In this document: one piece after another, positions 18,129 to 35,043 of the stretch
How the letters are laid out: each line of letters starts with the position of its first letter
How positions within the stretch are numbered: position 1 is the first letter of the stretch
From: Planctomycetaceae bacterium
GTDB lineage: Bacteria; Planctomycetota; Planctomycetia; Planctomycetales; Planctomycetaceae
Direction: 5' to 3'
Assembly (NCBI GenBank): GCA_021732845.1
Contig: JAKFUF010000018.1
Span: forward strand, 1-64,000
DNA length: 64,000 bases
Notes under the pieces: model-generated
The model's input: the letters and a program-made list of their open reading frames with translations, nothing else
What the model was told of the DNA's origin: nothing
The model's database searches: none
Made by a program: the position numbers and the translations under genes

Positions 18129-19073
18129 TCACGGTTGTCGTTCAATCGCCTTCGCCGTAAGGGCTTCGACTAAGAGTTGTCCACGTCCAGGGAGAAAATC
18201 GCCGATCTTCACCTTGCGGTCCACATACTGCGGGAAATAGGTCGGGATGTACGCGACGTAGATCCACTCGCGGAACGCCCCCAGGGCAGCATTTGGGTAA
18301 ATGTAGGCCTCCTGCGGATTGGACGCCGACTGCGGGAATGACTCTGGGTAGTAGTGTTCGTGCTTCTTGCGCAGCCCGTAAGTTCCGTCGAAACCTGATT
18401 CCACCCAGTGCTTTGACCAACGTTGCCCAACGCTGATATCAGGTACCGTATGGTGATCGATTGGACAGCCACCTTGGATCATGTGAATCACCAGGTCCGC
18501 CATCTCCCGGAAAACGAGAAAATAGCCGATGGGCACCTGGTCATTGGACAGGATTCGTTCGCGGTAGTTGTTCCACGCCGCCGGAATTGCGTTGTGAGGG
18601 TCGTAACCGCAGCGGTTGTAGATGAACGAGCGAAGCGAACTCCTCGCCAGGATGCGGTAGTTCCTGAGTGCTGTCAGTCCAGAGCTCTGGTCTGCCTCGA
18701 ATGCGTAGTATTCCAGAAGCGACATGCAAACCGCGTCGGTGAAGACGTGGGTTTCTGCGACCTTTGCAGCGGCCTTGAAGTGCAGCGCGTCTGCCGGGTG
18801 TCCATGCTCCAGCAGCAGTTTCGTAACTTTTTGCCCTCTTGGCTTCGACTTCTCTTTGTCCCATTCGTTGGCCAGCCTGATGAGCATCCCGTGATCCACG
18901 CCGCACAGACGTGCAAGGCCTCGGCCGGTTAGATACGGGGTTCCATCTTGAAGAACCCCCATTTGAATCCCATCTGCCTCCACCTCGACTACTGAAAACA
19001 ACGCCCCCTGTTGCATTTTTGAGCGTGGCCCGGATGACAGGGAAATCTCGTTTTTCACTGGTTTTTTCGACAT
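18129..19073 (-). CDS. BRO-N/antirepressor-like protein, possibly BstA-like
   Basis: A protein of 314 aa from ATG 19073 (MSKKPVKN). Residues 30-80 (GIQMGVLQDGTPYLTGRGLA, RLCGVDHGMLIRLANEW) look like a phage antirepressor/BRO-N or KilA-N type DNA-binding module. A helical middle follows (SLLEYYAFEADQ, LRNYRILARSSLRSFI) and a C-terminal region with YFPQYVDRKVKIGDFL. The architecture recalls the prophage abortive-infection protein BstA, but I cannot confirm homology. It lies just beyond the structural-operon terminator, a typical moron position. Confidence 0.5.
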   Translation of the reverse strand: MSKKPVKNEISLSSGPRSKMQQGALFSVVEVEADGIQMGVLQDGTPYLTGRGLARLCGVDHGMLIRLANEWDKEKSKPRGQKVTKLLLEHGHPADALHFKAAAKVAETHVFTDAVCMSLLEYYAFEADQSSGLTALRNYRILARSSLRSFIYNRCGYDPHNAIPAAWNNYRERILSNDQVPIGYFLVFREMADLVIHMIQGGCPIDHHTVPDISVGQRWSKHWVESGFDGTYGLRKKHEHYYPESFPQSASNPQEAYIYPNAALGAFREWIYVAYIPTYFPQYVDRKVKIGDFLPGRGQLLVEALTAKAIERQP

Positions 19074-19103
19074 TTTCCGTGTGGCCCGGACATGTTGGCC
19101 AAA

Positions 19104-19144
19104 GCAAAAACCGCCCGTGATGTCTGCCAAGAACAGTCGGGCGG
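19104..19144 (-). terminator. terminator of the prophage structural operon
   Basis: On the leftward strand, ccgcccg (19144-19138) pairs with cgggcgg (19117-19111) and is followed directly by TTTTTGC. It lies 93 bp beyond the last tail gene (stop 19237), so it ends the long late transcript. Confidence 0.75.
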
Positions 19145-19236
19145 CTCTGCTCCGGCGAACCGGATATTTCGTATTTGAGAATGCGAGTTCTTGGCGATGG
19201 GAATTGTCGCCAGTGGACATACGTCACGTCAAGCCG

Positions 19237-29594: not shown

Positions 29595-30035
29595 TCAGAC
29601 TGAACCCCAAATTTCGTCCCGCTTCTTCTCACCCGCTTTCGCCGCCGGCCCCATGTAGGGTCGCGCGGCAATCGTGACTGTCACCCATCGCCCGCCCTTG
29701 CGGACACGCATCGTCCCGCCCTCTTCCAGGGTTCGCGGGATGTCCGGCCCCGACTTCGCGTTCAGCTTCTCCGGACCAATGACTACTGAGCGAGCCCCCA
29801 TGTCGTAGGCATAGTAAATCCGATCCTTCAGCAGCCCTGTTCGCGACTTTGGCGGATCTCCCGGACTGCTTGGGGGCTCTCCCGGCTTGGCCCGCTTGAT
29901 GCTGTTCCTGGCAGACTTCCGGATGTACCCGCCGTAGTAACCGAGAACCTTTCGTAACTTTTGGTCAAGTTGTTTGATGACCGCCGTGCGGTCGAAGAAG
30001 TTCGCCTTCATCGCACTTTGGCGGATTGCGATCAT
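29595..30035 (-). CDS. HK97 gp10-like head-tail protein
   Basis: A protein of 146 aa with the gp10 (tail component) pattern: N-terminal helix FFDRTAVIKQLDQKLRKVLG, KSARNSIKRAKPGEPPSSPG, and a C-terminal beta part (GGRWVTVTIAARPYMGPA) ending in a helix. Such proteins join tail to head. It overlaps the upstream gene by ATGA. Confidence 0.7.
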   Translation of the reverse strand: MIAIRQSAMKANFFDRTAVIKQLDQKLRKVLGYYGGYIRKSARNSIKRAKPGEPPSSPGDPPKSRTGLLKDRIYYAYDMGARSVVIGPEKLNAKSGPDIPRTLEEGGTMRVRKGGRWVTVTIAARPYMGPAAKAGEKKRDEIWGSV

Positions 30036-30526
30036 TTCGTATAAACCGCCAAGAAATTGAGCCTGACAATTCCCACATACATGCCCTTCGCCATGTCCTG
30101 CGGGCTCCAGGGGGTTCGAATATCAATTCCCGTCAACGTGTCGGACACTCCGGTCAATGCAATGCCGTGAAAGTACTCGGCAAACTCTTCCAACAAATTG
30201 GCATAGGGGTCGACCAGTTCCGGGTCGGTGCCGTTCACTCGCACATGCACGCCGATGTCGATTTTGCTGTCGGATTGCAGGTACTTTGTTCGTGCCGCCT
30301 GACTCAGTTCCTTCTCGGCGGAAACAACCGAAACTTTCATTTCGGTCAACTCCTCCACCTCGAAGCGTGGCAAATAGCGACGAACGGCCACGAACGGCAG
30401 ACTGAACTGGCTGGCCAGTGCCGCCGTATTCAGGTCCTTCGTAACTGCATCTGCAACCTCGCTGAGTCTCGACACGCTGCACCCCTCATAATCAAACCCG
30501 ACCGGTGCGGCTGAATGCCGCTGCAT
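30032..30526 (-). CDS. tail completion-type protein
   Basis: A protein of 164 aa from ATG 30526; a GTG at 30475 (VSRLSEVADAV) with GAGGGG in front is a good alternative. Fold appears alpha/beta: VTKDLNTAALASQFSLPF, VRRYLPRFEVEELTEMKVSV, VHVRVNGTD, FLAVYTK. The length and place between connector and tail-tube genes match the tail-terminator/minor-tail class. No strict family call. Confidence 0.55.
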   Translation of the reverse strand: MQRHSAAPVGFDYEGCSVSRLSEVADAVTKDLNTAALASQFSLPFVAVRRYLPRFEVEELTEMKVSVVSAEKELSQAARTKYLQSDSKIDIGVHVRVNGTDPELVDPYANLLEEFAEYFHGIALTGVSDTLTGIDIRTPWSPQDMAKGMYVGIVRLNFLAVYTK

Positions 30527-30566
30527 GGTCTTCCGTCTCCGGCATGCCCGGTCGGGCTTCCGAGTC

Positions 30567-30794
30567 TCACTTGGCCAGATCGGCGGCCGTGAAATCGACG
30601 TAGAACTCTTTTCCGGGAATGAACTGTTCCGCAGCGGCTTTGTTGACCGTCGCCAGTTCGATCTTGCCCCCCGGCGTGTACTTGTAGAACTCTTTGTTCT
30701 CGGTCGATTCTCCAGTCACCGGGAACAGAGTGATCGACGCGCCACTGACGTTGTGTGTGACGGCTTCGACTTTGAACTTCGCGCGAACTGCCAT
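30567..30794 (-). CDS. small phage protein (75 aa)
   Basis: A short beta-rich protein, MAVRAKFKVEAVTHNVSGAS, then ITLFPVTGESTENKEFYKY and a C-terminal KEFYVDFTAADLAK. AAGGTGG lies before the ATG. The SVTL.PV.G.S.EN..F.K.TP.G pattern is common in small phage virion-associated proteins of unknown function. It precedes the tail completion gene in the transcript. Confidence 0.6.
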   Translation of the reverse strand: MAVRAKFKVEAVTHNVSGASITLFPVTGESTENKEFYKYTPGGKIELATVNKAAAEQFIPGKEFYVDFTAADLAK

Positions 30795-30815: not shown

Positions 30816-31547
30816 TTACGAACGCCCGACCAACTGCCACTGCAGCCGGCCGTTGTGCAGGTCACTATGTGCGGCCAGCAGTTGCGGCCAACTCAGGCTG
30901 TTGAGCCACTGCCAACCAAACCCGCCGTGTTCCGCGTACAGGTGCCAGATGATCCGGCGGCGGCTTGGCGGATCGACGGTGTATTCAGTGCCCACGAACG
31001 TCGACGGGTATCCGCCCCGCTGTGCCGTCTGCTGCGGCTGCACCTGGCGGGCCGCTGCCTGAGCCACGGCCTTCGCTGGTGTGTTGTACGCAGCCACGAT
31101 GTCTTCCGCTGTCGGCAGCTTCGGGTTCTGCTCTGTCCACTGGAGGACTGCGATCGGCTTGCCCAGGTCCAGAACGACGACGGCCGGAATCTTGGTGACG
31201 CCGTACTGGTCGCAAAGCTTGTCGAAGGCTTCCTTGTCGCTGTCCCCGATGTGGTGGATGTGATCGCGCGGCCCGGTCCCGAACTTCCATTTCCAGGCCA
31301 GCAGCTTCGGCTTCTCCACCCGATCGAAGGTTTTGCAGCCCGCACACCATGTCGTCGACAGCAGCAGGACTTTCCGCCGCCACGGACGGACAGGCACCGC
31401 TGCGACTTCCGCCGCGCCATGGTCTGTTACGATCAATGGCGTCGCCTGTGCGGCTCCGTGGTCTGTGACGACCAGTTCTGCCCGCGCGATGCACGCCAGC
31501 CCCATGGCGCTGAGTGTCGCCAGTCCGAATTCCCGCCGGTTGATCAC
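30816..31547 (-). CDS. exported thioredoxin-fold protein
   Basis: A protein of 243 aa, GTG 31547 overlapping the upstream stop (GTGA). The N-terminus NRREFGLATLSAMGLACIA is a Tat-like signal. Two copies of VTDHGAA follow. The Trx fold is at about 55-155: KVLLLSTTWCAGCKTFDR with a redox WCAGC and the cis-Pro segment VTKIPAVVVLD. A 90-residue C-terminal region ends with IIWHLYAEHGGFGWQWLNSL, unknown. It would act on disulfides outside the cytoplasm. An unusual gene in a phage late operon, directly coupled to a papain-like peptidase. Confidence 0.75.
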   Translation of the reverse strand: MINRREFGLATLSAMGLACIARAELVVTDHGAAQATPLIVTDHGAAEVAAVPVRPWRRKVLLLSTTWCAGCKTFDRVEKPKLLAWKWKFGTGPRDHIHHIGDSDKEAFDKLCDQYGVTKIPAVVVLDLGKPIAVLQWTEQNPKLPTAEDIVAAYNTPAKAVAQAAARQVQPQQTAQRGGYPSTFVGTEYTVDPPSRRRIIWHLYAEHGGFGWQWLNSLSWPQLLAAHSDLHNGRLQWQLVGRS

Positions 31548-32344
31548 AGTGCCTCCCCGATTGCCGACACGGACCGGGGGAACACCCAGTCATCGGCCAA
31601 GAGCATGTTGCCCCGCATCACCACCCATTCTGCCTGCCCTGGCCATTGGTTGCGGGTGCGAATTGCAACCTGGCCGTCCAGCCAGATCGCTTCCACATCG
31701 GCAGTCTCGTGTTCCCAGGCCATGCGGCCCCCGCCACCGGGAATCCGCCGCAGCAGCAGGGAGACGGCTTGATCCAAATTGCGGGGCTGGCACTCCGTCC
31801 AGTTCTCGACACGGACCTGCAGGGCCCGCTCTTTGTTGGCAGCCGTGGCGTACTTCCGGTTCAGTGCGTTTTCCGGCCAGTACTTGTCCGCCACGACACC
31901 ATTCGCTGCGATCCAGCGGACAGCGTCACGGCCCCAGCCGCCCACATTGCGGAACCCGGTCACCTGCGCGGCCACGCTGGTGGCGGACAGGCTGACCAGC
32001 TTGTTGTGCAATTGCGCGTACAGGATCTCAATGGGGTGGACGATGCCGAACGACCAGCAGAAATTCACCTCGATTTGCTTCTTCGGTGGCAGCTTCACCG
32101 CCGCGATCCGGTCCGACAGCCGGGTTTTGGTTTGCTCCGCGTCCTTGATCCAGTATTCCCACTCGCTCCGCGGAATGAGCAGTTCCGGGTCAAACGGATC
32201 CGCACTTACCCCGTAGGCATAGGGAGCGTTGCCGCGCAGATTCAGGTCCAGGCCGCGGGACACACCTTCCGGGTTCAAGATGTGCGATGGCGAGTCATCA
32301 TCGACGATGATTTCGCCCTTCAGCAGTTGAGAGGTGAAGCTCAT
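31544..32344 (-). CDS. papain-like (C1) cysteine peptidase-fold phage protein
   Basis: A protein of 266 aa. I read a papain-type core: catalytic Cys96 in VNFCWSFGIVHPIE, the SLSATSVAAQ...VGGWGRDAVRWIAANGVV segment like LS.Q..GG..A..Y....G, His212 in AWEHETADVEAIW, and Asn232 in RNQWPGQAEW. The first 60 residues may be a pro-peptide or virion anchor. No signal peptide. Coupled by ATGA to the secreted Ig-like gene upstream and by GTGA to the thioredoxin gene downstream. Peptidase activity is inferred from three motif positions only. Confidence 0.6.
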   Translation of the reverse strand: MSFTSQLLKGEIIVDDDSPSHILNPEGVSRGLDLNLRGNAPYAYGVSADPFDPELLIPRSEWEYWIKDAEQTKTRLSDRIAAVKLPPKKQIEVNFCWSFGIVHPIEILYAQLHNKLVSLSATSVAAQVTGFRNVGGWGRDAVRWIAANGVVADKYWPENALNRKYATAANKERALQVRVENWTECQPRNLDQAVSLLLRRIPGGGGRMAWEHETADVEAIWLDGQVAIRTRNQWPGQAEWVVMRGNMLLADDWVFPRSVSAIGEAL

Positions 32345-33108
32345 TTGCCACCCGCTTTCAGCAATGCGATCGTTGCGGCCTCAGTGGCTGGCAAGGGAAA
32401 CAGCGACACGGCATCCCCACGCTGGATGAACACACACGGTAGCTTCGTTGCCGCATCCGGCTTGGCCAGCGATGCCTTCGCAGCGGTCCACAACTCCCGC
32501 CACGCTGGCGTCTCGTTCTTCAACTGGTCGCGCTTGTCAATGTCCCGATCCCACTTCCGCCACTCGGCCCGCCCGGTACCAGACTTCGCGCAGACTTCAT
32601 CCAGCACAGCGTTGACTGCCCCGGAATTCAGAATGGTCAACTGCTCCCGTGTGGCCGTCGGCGGATAGATGAACAGCACCCGCAAGCCAGTTGCCGGCGT
32701 CACGTCCGTCGGACCTGGCGGAACCAGGGGAGGGTCGACCGGTGGAACCAATGGCTCAACTGGCGTTGGCGCTGGAGGCGGACGAGCACCCTTCAGTTCC
32801 GTCGTCATCCGCATCACGACCAGCTTCCCGTTGTCGTGCTGTGCCGCTGCGATGATCTCATAAGGCCCATTGACCGGCGGCCAGATCAGCAGGCCGGTCG
32901 GTGTGACCTCGTGGCCGTCGTCATTGTCCAGGGACGCAGGGACGGACCATGTGGGCTCCACTCCCGCCGGCAGCCCGACGACAGTGAACTTGGCCTTCTG
33001 CCCCAGACGCAGTTCCGCCGGCCCCTCGATGTGAGGGACGACGGGCACCGGCTCGGGCTCGAACGGTGACTGCGGGAGGCAGAGCAGCAGTAGCAACAGG
33101 GCTTGCAC
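32341..33108 (-). CDS. secreted Ig-like / thioredoxin-like protein
   Basis: A protein of 255 aa, GTG 33108. Signal peptide MQALLLLLLCLPQ, an Ig-like beta domain (PAELRLGQKAKFTVVGLPAG, then YEIIAAAQHDNGKLVVMRM), a Pro-rich linker (about 105-135), and a C-terminal alpha/beta domain (GLRVLFIYPPTATREQLTIL, LPCVFIQRGDAVSLFPLP) that resembles a thioredoxin fold lacking CxxC. Partner of the two genes downstream by overlap. Role unknown. Confidence 0.6.
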   Translation of the reverse strand: MQALLLLLLCLPQSPFEPEPVPVVPHIEGPAELRLGQKAKFTVVGLPAGVEPTWSVPASLDNDDGHEVTPTGLLIWPPVNGPYEIIAAAQHDNGKLVVMRMTTELKGARPPPAPTPVEPLVPPVDPPLVPPGPTDVTPATGLRVLFIYPPTATREQLTILNSGAVNAVLDEVCAKSGTGRAEWRKWDRDIDKRDQLKNETPAWRELWTAAKASLAKPDAATKLPCVFIQRGDAVSLFPLPATEAATIALLKAGGK

Positions 33109-33111
33109 GGA

Positions 33112-33504
33112 TCACGCTCCGAGTTCAGCAACACACGAACCGACGACTTCCCGCTGCGACAAACGAACGTGGTCCAGAATGCCAGTTGCGGTCGCCAAAG
33201 CCTGCTGCTTGGCAAACCGCTTCTTGGTTCCCCGTGACTCTTCCATGACCTCTTTTGAGACATGGTTGAGAAGTCCAGGCTTGTAGCCCTTCACTGGATC
33301 CCACTTTGAGGCAACAGCCTCAACCACCTCGTCAGGCGTGTCCGGCTTCAGGCACCCGAACAGCCTTTGCAGAACCGGCGTGACGATCGCGAGAATCGAA
33401 ACGAAGTCGATCCCCACCATCGCGGGGGCCGCGCACAGCGCTGTCGCGATCGCGTTCGCCTGAGCGTCAAACTGCGGAGTTGGCTTCCGTCGTTTCTTGG
33501 CCAT
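33112..33504 (-). CDS. small prophage protein with hydrophobic segment
   Basis: A protein of 130 aa from ATG 33504 (GAGG 8 bases upstream); longer in-frame readings run into the tRNA-like sequence and are rejected. Basic start (MAKKRRKPTP), a hydrophobic stretch VGIDFVSILAIVTPVLQRLF (one TM or amphipathic helix), then a helical Lys-rich tail. Between the holin-like gene and the secreted Ig-like gene. May be part of a lysis set. Confidence 0.5.
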   Translation of the reverse strand: MAKKRRKPTPQFDAQANAIATALCAAPAMVGIDFVSILAIVTPVLQRLFGCLKPDTPDEVVEAVASKWDPVKGYKPGLLNHVSKEVMEESRGTKKRFAKQQALATATGILDHVRLSQREVVGSCVAELGA

Positions 33505-33533
33505 GATGCATGCCTCGAGAAAAATTGACCGAT

Positions 33534-33602
33534 TGGGGAGTGTGGGGGTTGAACCCACTCGTCCAGGCTTATGAGACCCGGATGCATACCGACGCACTCC
33601 CG
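33534..33602 (-). tRNA. tRNA-Met(CAU)-like gene in late operon
   Basis: On the leftward strand: T-arm GTGGG-TTCAACC-CCCAC is perfect; anticodon arm CGGGT-CTCATAA-GCCTG contains CAT; acceptor CGGGAGT/ACTCCCC pairs at six of seven with a C:C mismatch at 1:72, then A. The D-arm is short (GCG/TGC around TCGGTA). About 69 nt, no encoded CCA. The unpaired 1:72 and GGG in the anticodon stem recall initiator tRNA. The weak D-arm means it may be degenerate or atypical. Confidence 0.55.
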
Positions 33603-33607
33603 ACACT

Positions 33608-34432
33608 TCACGCATGTGCTGGGCGAAATCCTTGGTGCGACTCTTTGCACGCCGCCTGATGTTCCGCCTGCTTCTTCGCCAGTTCCTCCAGGGCCCGCTG
33701 CACCTCCGGCGTTGGCTTTGTGTTGTCCCGGATCTCTTCGAGCAGCCCCGGAATGACGGCCAGAGACTTGGACTGTGCCGCCATCTCGATTGCCATCGTC
33801 TTGCTGGTTGCGACCTCCGCAGCCAGGTATTCCCGGTGTGCCTTGACGATCGGGTTGGCGACGTGGAACCACGCGACGTACAGCATGGAGAACACGAGGA
33901 ACCATTGCGGCCCCCAGTCAGCCACGCGTTCCCAGTTCATGTCGGCCAGCAACAGAAGCGGAAAAGCGAAACAAGCCATCACCGCGGGAGGGGTTGGCGG
34001 CCCCGGTGGAAGTGGCAGGTCTGGTCGGTTGTCCCTCACGAGTTTCAGCAGCGCGTCACCCGCCAGTTTGAGCGACACCGCAACGGCCGCACTGGCCACC
34101 CCAAGGTCAAGGTGGCTGACGTATTGCTGCACCCCCGGCAGGTAGACCAGCGCCATCGCCGAGAGGGAATAGGTTGCATTCCGCCACGCGGCCCGCTTGT
34201 CCTCCAGGCTGAGCGGCCAGCCCGCCCTGGCCCGCAGTGCCACATCTCCCAGGATCAGACCGACAGCCGTGACCAGTGGGGCATAGATCCCCACGTCCGG
34301 TTCGCCCAGCGTAATGAGCCACGCGGACACGAAAGCGGCCAGGGCAATCACGCCTTTGGCAGCCAGTGACCGCAGGTCGGTCCAGTCGAGTTGAAAGGCC
34401 CGAGAATCGTAAGATTCAATCTTCATTTTCAC
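33608..34432 (-). CDS. multi-TM membrane protein, holin-like
   Basis: A protein of 274 aa with about five hydrophobic helices: GVIALAAFVSAWLITLG, APLVTAVGLILGDVA, TYSLSAMALVYLPG, VMACFAFPLLLLADM and WFLVFSMLYVAWFHV, followed by a cytoplasmic coiled coil (residues 205-260). Located just upstream of the Trx/peptidase cluster in the transcript, so holin is a reasonable guess, although larger than most holins. Overlaps the upstream gene by ATGA. Confidence 0.55.
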   Translation of the reverse strand: MKMKIESYDSRAFQLDWTDLRSLAAKGVIALAAFVSAWLITLGEPDVGIYAPLVTAVGLILGDVALRARAGWPLSLEDKRAAWRNATYSLSAMALVYLPGVQQYVSHLDLGVASAAVAVSLKLAGDALLKLVRDNRPDLPLPPGPPTPPAVMACFAFPLLLLADMNWERVADWGPQWFLVFSMLYVAWFHVANPIVKAHREYLAAEVATSKTMAIEMAAQSKSLAVIPGLLEEIRDNTKPTPEVQRALEELAKKQAEHQAACKESHQGFRPAHA

Positions 34433-34782
34433 TGCACCTGCACGGTGTGGATGCGATACTCAAAATTGGCTGTGCCCGACCGCTCGAACTCGCGGTTCGC
34501 CACGGGCTGCACCTCGTAGACTTCGGTTCCATCTGTGATTCGGTCGAACTGCTGCGGCTCGTGCGGCTGCCCTGCCAGGACGAGATCCGCCACGAGGATC
34601 AGGTAGTCCCGTTGCCGCTGCGTGACGACGAATCCTTCGACCGTGGCGTTCTCCACCACTGTCTGCCCGACCACTGCCCGGACCGTCGCCGACTTCGAAC
34701 CGCTGGCGTACAGGACACTGCGGCCGGCCAGTTGATTGACCGTCGTCAGTGCCCCCTGCAATGCCAGCTCGAACGGGTCCAC
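34429..34782 (-). CDS. head-tail joining-type protein
   Basis: A protein of 117 aa: helix MDPFELALQGALTTVNQLAG, then beta strands RSVLYASGSKSATVRAVVG, ADLVLAG, DRITDGTEVYEVQPV. This pattern (polar strands around a PxxxDxI..G..Y.V) is that of phage head-tail joining or stopper proteins. Position after the capsid genes in transcription order agrees. Confidence 0.6.
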   Translation of the reverse strand: MDPFELALQGALTTVNQLAGRSVLYASGSKSATVRAVVGQTVVENATVEGFVVTQRQRDYLILVADLVLAGQPHEPQQFDRITDGTEVYEVQPVANREFERSGTANFEYRIHTVQVQ

Positions 34783-34785
34783 GGC

Positions 34786-35043
34786 TCACTCCGCGACGAT
34801 GGCGACCAGCCCGTTTGGCTGGGTCTCGACCTGCTGAACATGGAACGTGCGTTCCTGGCCGTCGATCACCTCGCGGATTTCGTCGCCAGCCTGCGGAACG
34901 ACAGGCTTGCTGTCCAGTTCCAGGCCGGCAGGGTCGACGGTGTATTCCCGTAGATCCCCCGCCGGTTCCACGGTTGCCGCCACGCGAACACTGTGGTTCC
35001 CGCGGCCGAAATAGATGCTTGTATTCATGGCGTGATTCATCAA
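34786..35043 (-). CDS. small head completion-type protein
   Basis: A protein of 85 aa from ATG 35043 (or 80 aa from 35028). All-beta, with GRGNHSVRVAATVEPAG, EYTVDPAGLELDS and EVIDGQERTFHVQQVE. Sits 3 bp from the next gene. Likely a small head-tail connector or decoration protein. No family named with confidence. Confidence 0.5.
   Translation of the reverse strand: MMNHAMNTSIYFGRGNHSVRVAATVEPAGDLREYTVDPAGLELDSKPVVPQAGDEIREVIDGQERTFHVQQVETQPNGLVAIVAE

Follow-up and report, generated by a model that had tools for sequence, protein, structure and literature searches.

A cassette of late genes in a planctomycete prophage, in which a papain-family (C1A) cysteine peptidase (C1) is coupled to an exported partner protein (T) and an exported thioredoxin, is probably a phage lysis module, with the peptidase in the endolysin role and the thioredoxin keeping the peptidase, or envelope disulfides, reduced. 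We class C1 as a C1A family member; the cassette we place with lysis cassettes by its presumed working, without assigning it to the holin-endolysin class.

Cassette layout in the prophage

The window, that is, the whole stretch of 64,000 nucleotides that was analysed, is from a planctomycete contig (host genome, 9.25 Mb) and bears an integrated tailed phage. The prophage has an integrase and a LexA-like domain, a lambda-type portal, a gpA-type terminase, a GP7-type capsid protein, a Bbp16-like protein and a DnaB helicase, as well as head-tail joining proteins and a tail completion protein. The cassette occupies a slot with the head-tail joining genes (34429-35043) on its upstream side and the tail completion gene (29595-30035) on its downstream side, so late phage genes lie on both sides, as expected of a holin-endolysin cassette. 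In phage P2, the lysis genes are found at the corresponding position. The features are as follows:

34429-35043, minus strand: head-tail joining proteins, two ORFs (PF25138), upstream bound of the cassette
33608-34432, minus strand: membrane protein, candidate holin; 3-5 hydrophobic segments, coiled-coil-like C-terminal part
33112-33501, minus strand: 129-aa protein directly upstream of T, with one hydrophobic segment and no assigned function
32341-33108, minus strand: T, exported partner, 255 aa, with an N-terminal hydrophobic segment, an Ig-like domain, a Pro-rich linker and a C-terminal beta-alpha domain
31544-32344, minus strand: C1, papain-family (C1A) cysteine peptidase, 266 aa, without a signal peptide (Pfam, alignment, AlphaFold model)
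30816-31547, minus strand: exported thioredoxin with WCAGC, 243 aa (motifs, group profile, N-terminal export signal)
29595-30794, minus strand: three ORFs forming the downstream bound, for a phrog_6978-like protein (75 aa), a 164-aa protein and a tail completion/Neck1 protein (146 aa)

An earlier sequence-only reading of this DNA had proposed that the last three cassette genes, coupled by 4-base overlaps just after a holin-like membrane gene, form a lysis or entry set. The overlaps are present at both junctions (ATGA and GTGA, all on the minus strand), and the membrane gene with its hydrophobic segments is also there, but the ORF for the 129-aa protein intervenes before T.

As a side observation, the same prophage encodes a BstA homologue at 18129-19220 (minus strand; 46% identical over 82%); BstA is known from Salmonella phage BTP1 as an abortive-infection protein.

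C1 belongs to the papain family

By sequence, conserved catalytic residues and predicted fold, C1 is a papain-family (C1A) peptidase. It matches Pfam Peptidase_C1 (PF00112) above the cut-off (E 3.4e-4), and its alignment profile matches solved C1A enzymes at E 2e-11. Cys96 and His212 are invariant among 15 aligned relatives, and Gln90 and Asn232 are found in 14/15. The AlphaFold model (pLDDT 88.4) has the papain fold (Foldseek E 3e-9), with a VIA Z of ~20 over 210-222 residues to triticain-alpha, xylellain and procathepsin K; xylellain is among the best structural matches. The sequence profile, the Gln-Cys-His-Asn residues and the papain fold thus all place C1 in C1A, and the papain-like contexts that had been noticed around Cys96, His212 and Asn232 are confirmed by PF00112, residue conservation and the C1 geometry of the model. 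A profile made without the window protein recovered the window C1 at E 1e-49, against E 0.15 for the best of 1000 shuffles, which rules out a chance motif as the source of the match.

The structural alignment begins at residue 16 and extends across the C-terminal portion of the propeptides of zymogens, which would put the N-terminal arm of C1 in the propeptide position of C1A zymogens. No wall-binding domain was found in C1.

The exported partner T

The Ig-like domain of T spans residues 24-107 (structure comparison, Z 8-9 to PKD/Ig domains), and the structure search with T was filled by matches to this domain. The C-terminal domain (142-254) is a confidently predicted beta-alpha domain with the strand and helix order of thioredoxin, without CxxC. 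Its profile gave no match to the real thioredoxins, so homology of T to the exported thioredoxins is unsupported by profile comparison. The description of T as a secreted Ig-like plus thioredoxin-like protein therefore holds for the Ig-like part, and the thioredoxin-like part, for which only the order fits, is not proven.

One contig (L078:1830-3515, plus strand) encodes a natural 561-aa fusion of membrane-anchored T and C1 with an N-terminal membrane segment. The fusion would place C1 outside the cytoplasm and argues that T and C1 work together there.

The thioredoxin and other exported cysteine proteins

The protein encoded at 30816-31547 has WCAGC and KIPAVVV motifs; its match to Pfam Thioredoxin_2 (E 1e-3) is below the cut-off, and a profile of seven such exported thioredoxins matches solved thioredoxins at E 1e-10 to 1e-14. 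The WCxxC motif, the cis-Pro motif and the thioredoxin profile were thus all found, and together with the N-terminal export signal (NRREFGLA.., Tat-like by eye) they support the earlier call of an exported thioredoxin-fold protein. Its 78-aa C-terminal tail has no relative among the loci compared. Loci in which C1 is followed by an exported CxxC protein, or by a fusion of trypsin and thioredoxin, are the window, L003, L023/L024, L027, L051, L056, L059, L062 and L076/L077. A CxxC thioredoxin is found in a minority of C1 loci only.

Downstream of C1, the loci L019, L041, L054, L055, L057, L063, L065 and L160 encode small exported proteins that combine a CxNGxC-type motif with a strongly basic tail (e.g., RRGLFGRRR or RRLLGRLRRR). 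These proteins are possibly an outer-membrane disrupting or spanin-like component.

Distribution of the T-C1 pair

A single-sequence search with C1 gave one relative among 392 genomes of the phylum, which sits in a different prophage from the same family and shows the order T, C1, trypsin-thioredoxin fusion. The single-sequence scan of viral contigs gave nothing, and a two-sequence profile was required; this profile detected C1 in 12/397 genomes of the class and in three viral contigs. Profiles of closer subsets yielded 36 and 6 loci on viral contigs and seven in genomes, almost all from planctomycetes. Back-translated patterns could not be used with the 15-row C1 alignment because of its divergence. 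By tblastn, neither the window C1 nor one relative matched annotated phages, and no match was found in plasmids.

T lies directly upstream of C1 or is fused to it in 55 of 59 cases, counting distinct C1 sequences of planctomycete genomes and of IMG/VR contigs. T was detected in 13/397 genomes, ten of which also have C1 by profile; of the remaining three, two have a divergent C1 after T. The cluster that the sequence-only reading had suggested looking for in other planctomycete prophages is thus present as the T-C1 pair, with the thioredoxin in a minority. The position of the pair within the late region varies between phages.

Membrane neighbours

Genes directly upstream of T have hydrophobic segments in 22/27 cases, compared with 73/413 among background genes (Fisher p 9e-12), the background being small genes from six contigs of the same type; hydropathy measures this only crudely, and several of the loci are related. 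By hydropathy, an N-terminal hydrophobic segment is present in 33/36 T proteins and absent from 48/49 C1 proteins. This combination of membrane-type neighbours, exported T and non-exported C1 is the usual holin-plus-endolysin pattern and so counts for the lysis reading. The membrane proteins beside T gave no holin family match, the best being phrog_3427 holin (E 0.026). Homology of the window membrane protein and the 129-aa protein to their G194 counterparts was unsupported.

Membrane-anchored proteins resembling staphylococcal nuclease by eye were observed shortly upstream of T in two loci (L019:8628-9182 and L160:3-761), and genes of similar size in L063 and L064 cluster with the nuclease-like gene of L019.

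Search for conventional lysins

Amidase_2, Phage_lysozyme, SLT, M15_4 and Amidase_3 were absent from 24 C1-bearing viral contigs (possibly fragments), with control genomes positive; the count covers C1-bearing contigs only. The window prophage has none of these five families, and the proteins scanned contain no Pfam lysin, in agreement with the earlier observation that lysozymes, amidases and transglycosylases are not visible. The complete Pfam list of the 78-kb G754 phage is also free of lysins. For G749, and for G751 with G755, no lysin was among the best 25 families listed, and the same holds for the best matches listed in the PHROG scans, which is weaker evidence. A known muralytic domain, expected of a holin-endolysin cassette, was found in neither the cassette nor the phage. 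The sequence-only reading had named a fold without C1 geometry, a conventional endolysin or a role as tail parts as grounds for abandoning it; C1 geometry is present, the searches gave no such endolysin, and there is no sign that the proteins are tail parts.

In prophages with a related capsid protein, the slot is often empty (e.g., L135 and L128), and several of these show no lysin within 20 kb. In the slot of L133 and L134, a membrane-anchored protein bearing papain-like motifs is accompanied by an exported protein and an exported thioredoxin. The L137 slot contains membrane proteins together with one protein bearing papain-like motifs and another that is thioredoxin-like, and L140 has a comparable set placed after the tail genes. 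Pfam backs the thioredoxins of L140 and L133, the C1 of L140 is below the cut-off (E 0.0018), and the other peptidase assignments in this comparison were made by eye from motifs only. Read with caution, these related prophages may represent the same solution built from different papain-like enzymes.

The host genome gave a single match to Amidase_2 and none to SLT, Amidase_3, Phage_lysozyme or M15_4; judged from these profiles, the host set of these wall-hydrolase families is unusually small.

Proposed lysis mechanism

Gene order, the predicted fold, the catalytic residues, the export signals on T and the thioredoxin, their absence from C1 and the conservation of the T-C1 pair are the observed basis for the following scheme, whose steps we infer. 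Late in infection, T would be exported and sit in the inner membrane or periplasm, while C1 would build up in the cytoplasm in a zymogen-like form, the cleft covered by its N-terminal arm. Once the holin-like membrane protein had opened the inner membrane, C1 would enter the periplasm, dock on T and become activated. The exported thioredoxin would keep the catalytic cysteine reduced and may also reduce disulfide-linked envelope proteins, and C1 would cut envelope proteins or peptide cross-links until the cell bursts. A reducing partner is sensible because a cysteine enzyme loses activity in an oxidising compartment, and the cysteine endolysins Pal and Skl, which are activated by a reducing agent (PMC8586454), provide a precedent.

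We favour lysis because C1 has the C1A fold and catalytic residues, the T-C1 pairing is nearly constant and includes the L078 fusion, no lysin was found in the 24 C1-bearing contigs or in G754, the window slot corresponds to that of the P2 lysis genes, and related prophages hold other cassettes of papain-like enzymes (mostly by motif) and thioredoxins. Counting against it, C1A enzymes usually cut proteins, and planctomycete cells have lysozyme-sensitive peptidoglycan (PMC4432640); in addition, there is no holin family match, the CxxC thioredoxin is in a minority of loci, and several related prophages have an empty slot with no lysin seen.

Alternative explanations

The substrate of C1 is the point on which versions of the lysis reading differ. 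In a version we regard as rather doubtful, lysis occurs by proteolysis and reduction: the T-docked C1A peptidase, maintained by the thioredoxin, would dismantle a cross-linked envelope protein layer, with no enzyme that cuts peptidoglycan. Its protein-wall premise comes from older work on a disulfide-bonded protein sacculus, as cited in PMC2754498. According to later work, planctomycetes have peptidoglycan that lysozyme attacks (PMC4432640), and the host genome has Mur ligases, so this premise is optional; the role of the thioredoxin could be no more than to hold the catalytic cysteine in its reduced state. The same peptidoglycan would suit an ordinary lysin on a papain fold, which needs no protein wall; C1 would then cut stem peptides like CHAP or NlpC/P60, which share the fold (PMC10318531), and some BFVD matches of the C1 fold are named peptidoglycan-binding or muramidase proteins. 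However, C1 groups by sequence and structure with the true C1A proteases, which are known to act on L-peptides, and it lacks a recognisable wall-binding domain, so we consider this version unlikely, a grade that concerns this substrate and overlaps with the main lysis reading.

Roles other than lysis were also weighed. Ig-like domains are common on virions, and the window genes sit among head-tail and tail genes, which would fit an entry enzyme, i.e., C1, with or without T and the thioredoxin, packaged or attached to the tail to open the envelope for DNA entry. However, the export or anchor sequences of T would be needless for a virion part assembled in the cytoplasm, the late-region position is mobile, and no fusion to tail proteins was seen, the sole fusion being that of C1 with membrane-anchored T. 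The sequence-only reading had left lysis and entry side by side; because of the holin-like neighbours, the export of T but not C1 and the varying position, lysis is better supported, and entry appears very improbable. It is also quite unlikely that the T-C1 pair is a host-takeover, exclusion or anti-competitor module that remodels the host or keeps out other phages by cleaving receptors or envelope proteins, with T perhaps restraining C1. The zymogen-like C1, the surface roles suited to Ig-like and exported proteins, and the two T-C1 pairs of L058 and L070 would fit such a module, but it leaves the lack of other lysins and the holin-like neighbours unexplained, and the window prophage already has a BstA-like exclusion gene elsewhere.

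Comparison with known systems

For the lysis reading, the closest known enzymes are the short bacterial C1A peptidases of the xylellain type, which resemble C1 in fold, catalytic residues and an N-terminal arm at the propeptide position, and whose genes have already been reported as acquired by tailed phages (PMC10380794). In contrast to that type, C1 is tied to an exported T, in a cassette of late genes that also has holin-like genes and, in some cases, a thioredoxin; its aligned relatives are only 18-31% identical to it. The cassette resembles holin-endolysin cassettes of the P2 layout in its place and in having small membrane proteins beside an enzyme without an export signal, but it differs in that its enzyme is a C1A protease without a muralytic domain and that T and the thioredoxin, both exported, stand in place of recognised spanins. 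Endolysins commonly have papain-like folds (PMC10318531), and Pal and Skl (CHAP, Amidase_5) and the pseudomurein endoisopeptidases PeiW/PeiP are likewise viral papain-like cysteine enzymes that open hosts (PMC8586454; PMC10318531). They differ from C1 in belonging to other families and in their bond specificity for wall peptides. We know of no thioredoxin or T gene in those systems.

Our literature search found no report of a T-C1 pair or a C1A lysis module, which does not prove that none exists, and no paper on how phages leave planctomycetes. If the lysis reading holds, the muralytic enzyme of a whole phage group has given way to a true protease of the papain type, which would inform on what holds the planctomycete envelope together, and T and C1 would be markers for recognising these phages in metagenomes.

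Unusual C1 loci

Several C1 loci have additional features. L058 and L070 each have two T-C1 pairs in one phage, the second C1 being divergent and resembling that of L029. By eye, possible cysteine peptidases resembling YiiX/NlpC-type proteins lie beside C1 in L081 (3832-4452, minus strand) and upstream of the fusion in L078 (a 191-aa ORF); their PHROG match was unrelated. In L062:3915-5753 (plus strand), the C1 ORF is broken by a probable intein exactly at the catalytic cysteine (..GY, then CHTADTEVLTTSG...TTLVSSN, then CWAYS..). A PDB sequence search with this intein gave no match, and the assignment is based on the junction motifs; placed at the catalytic cysteine, the intein would mean that the peptidase could be active only after splicing.
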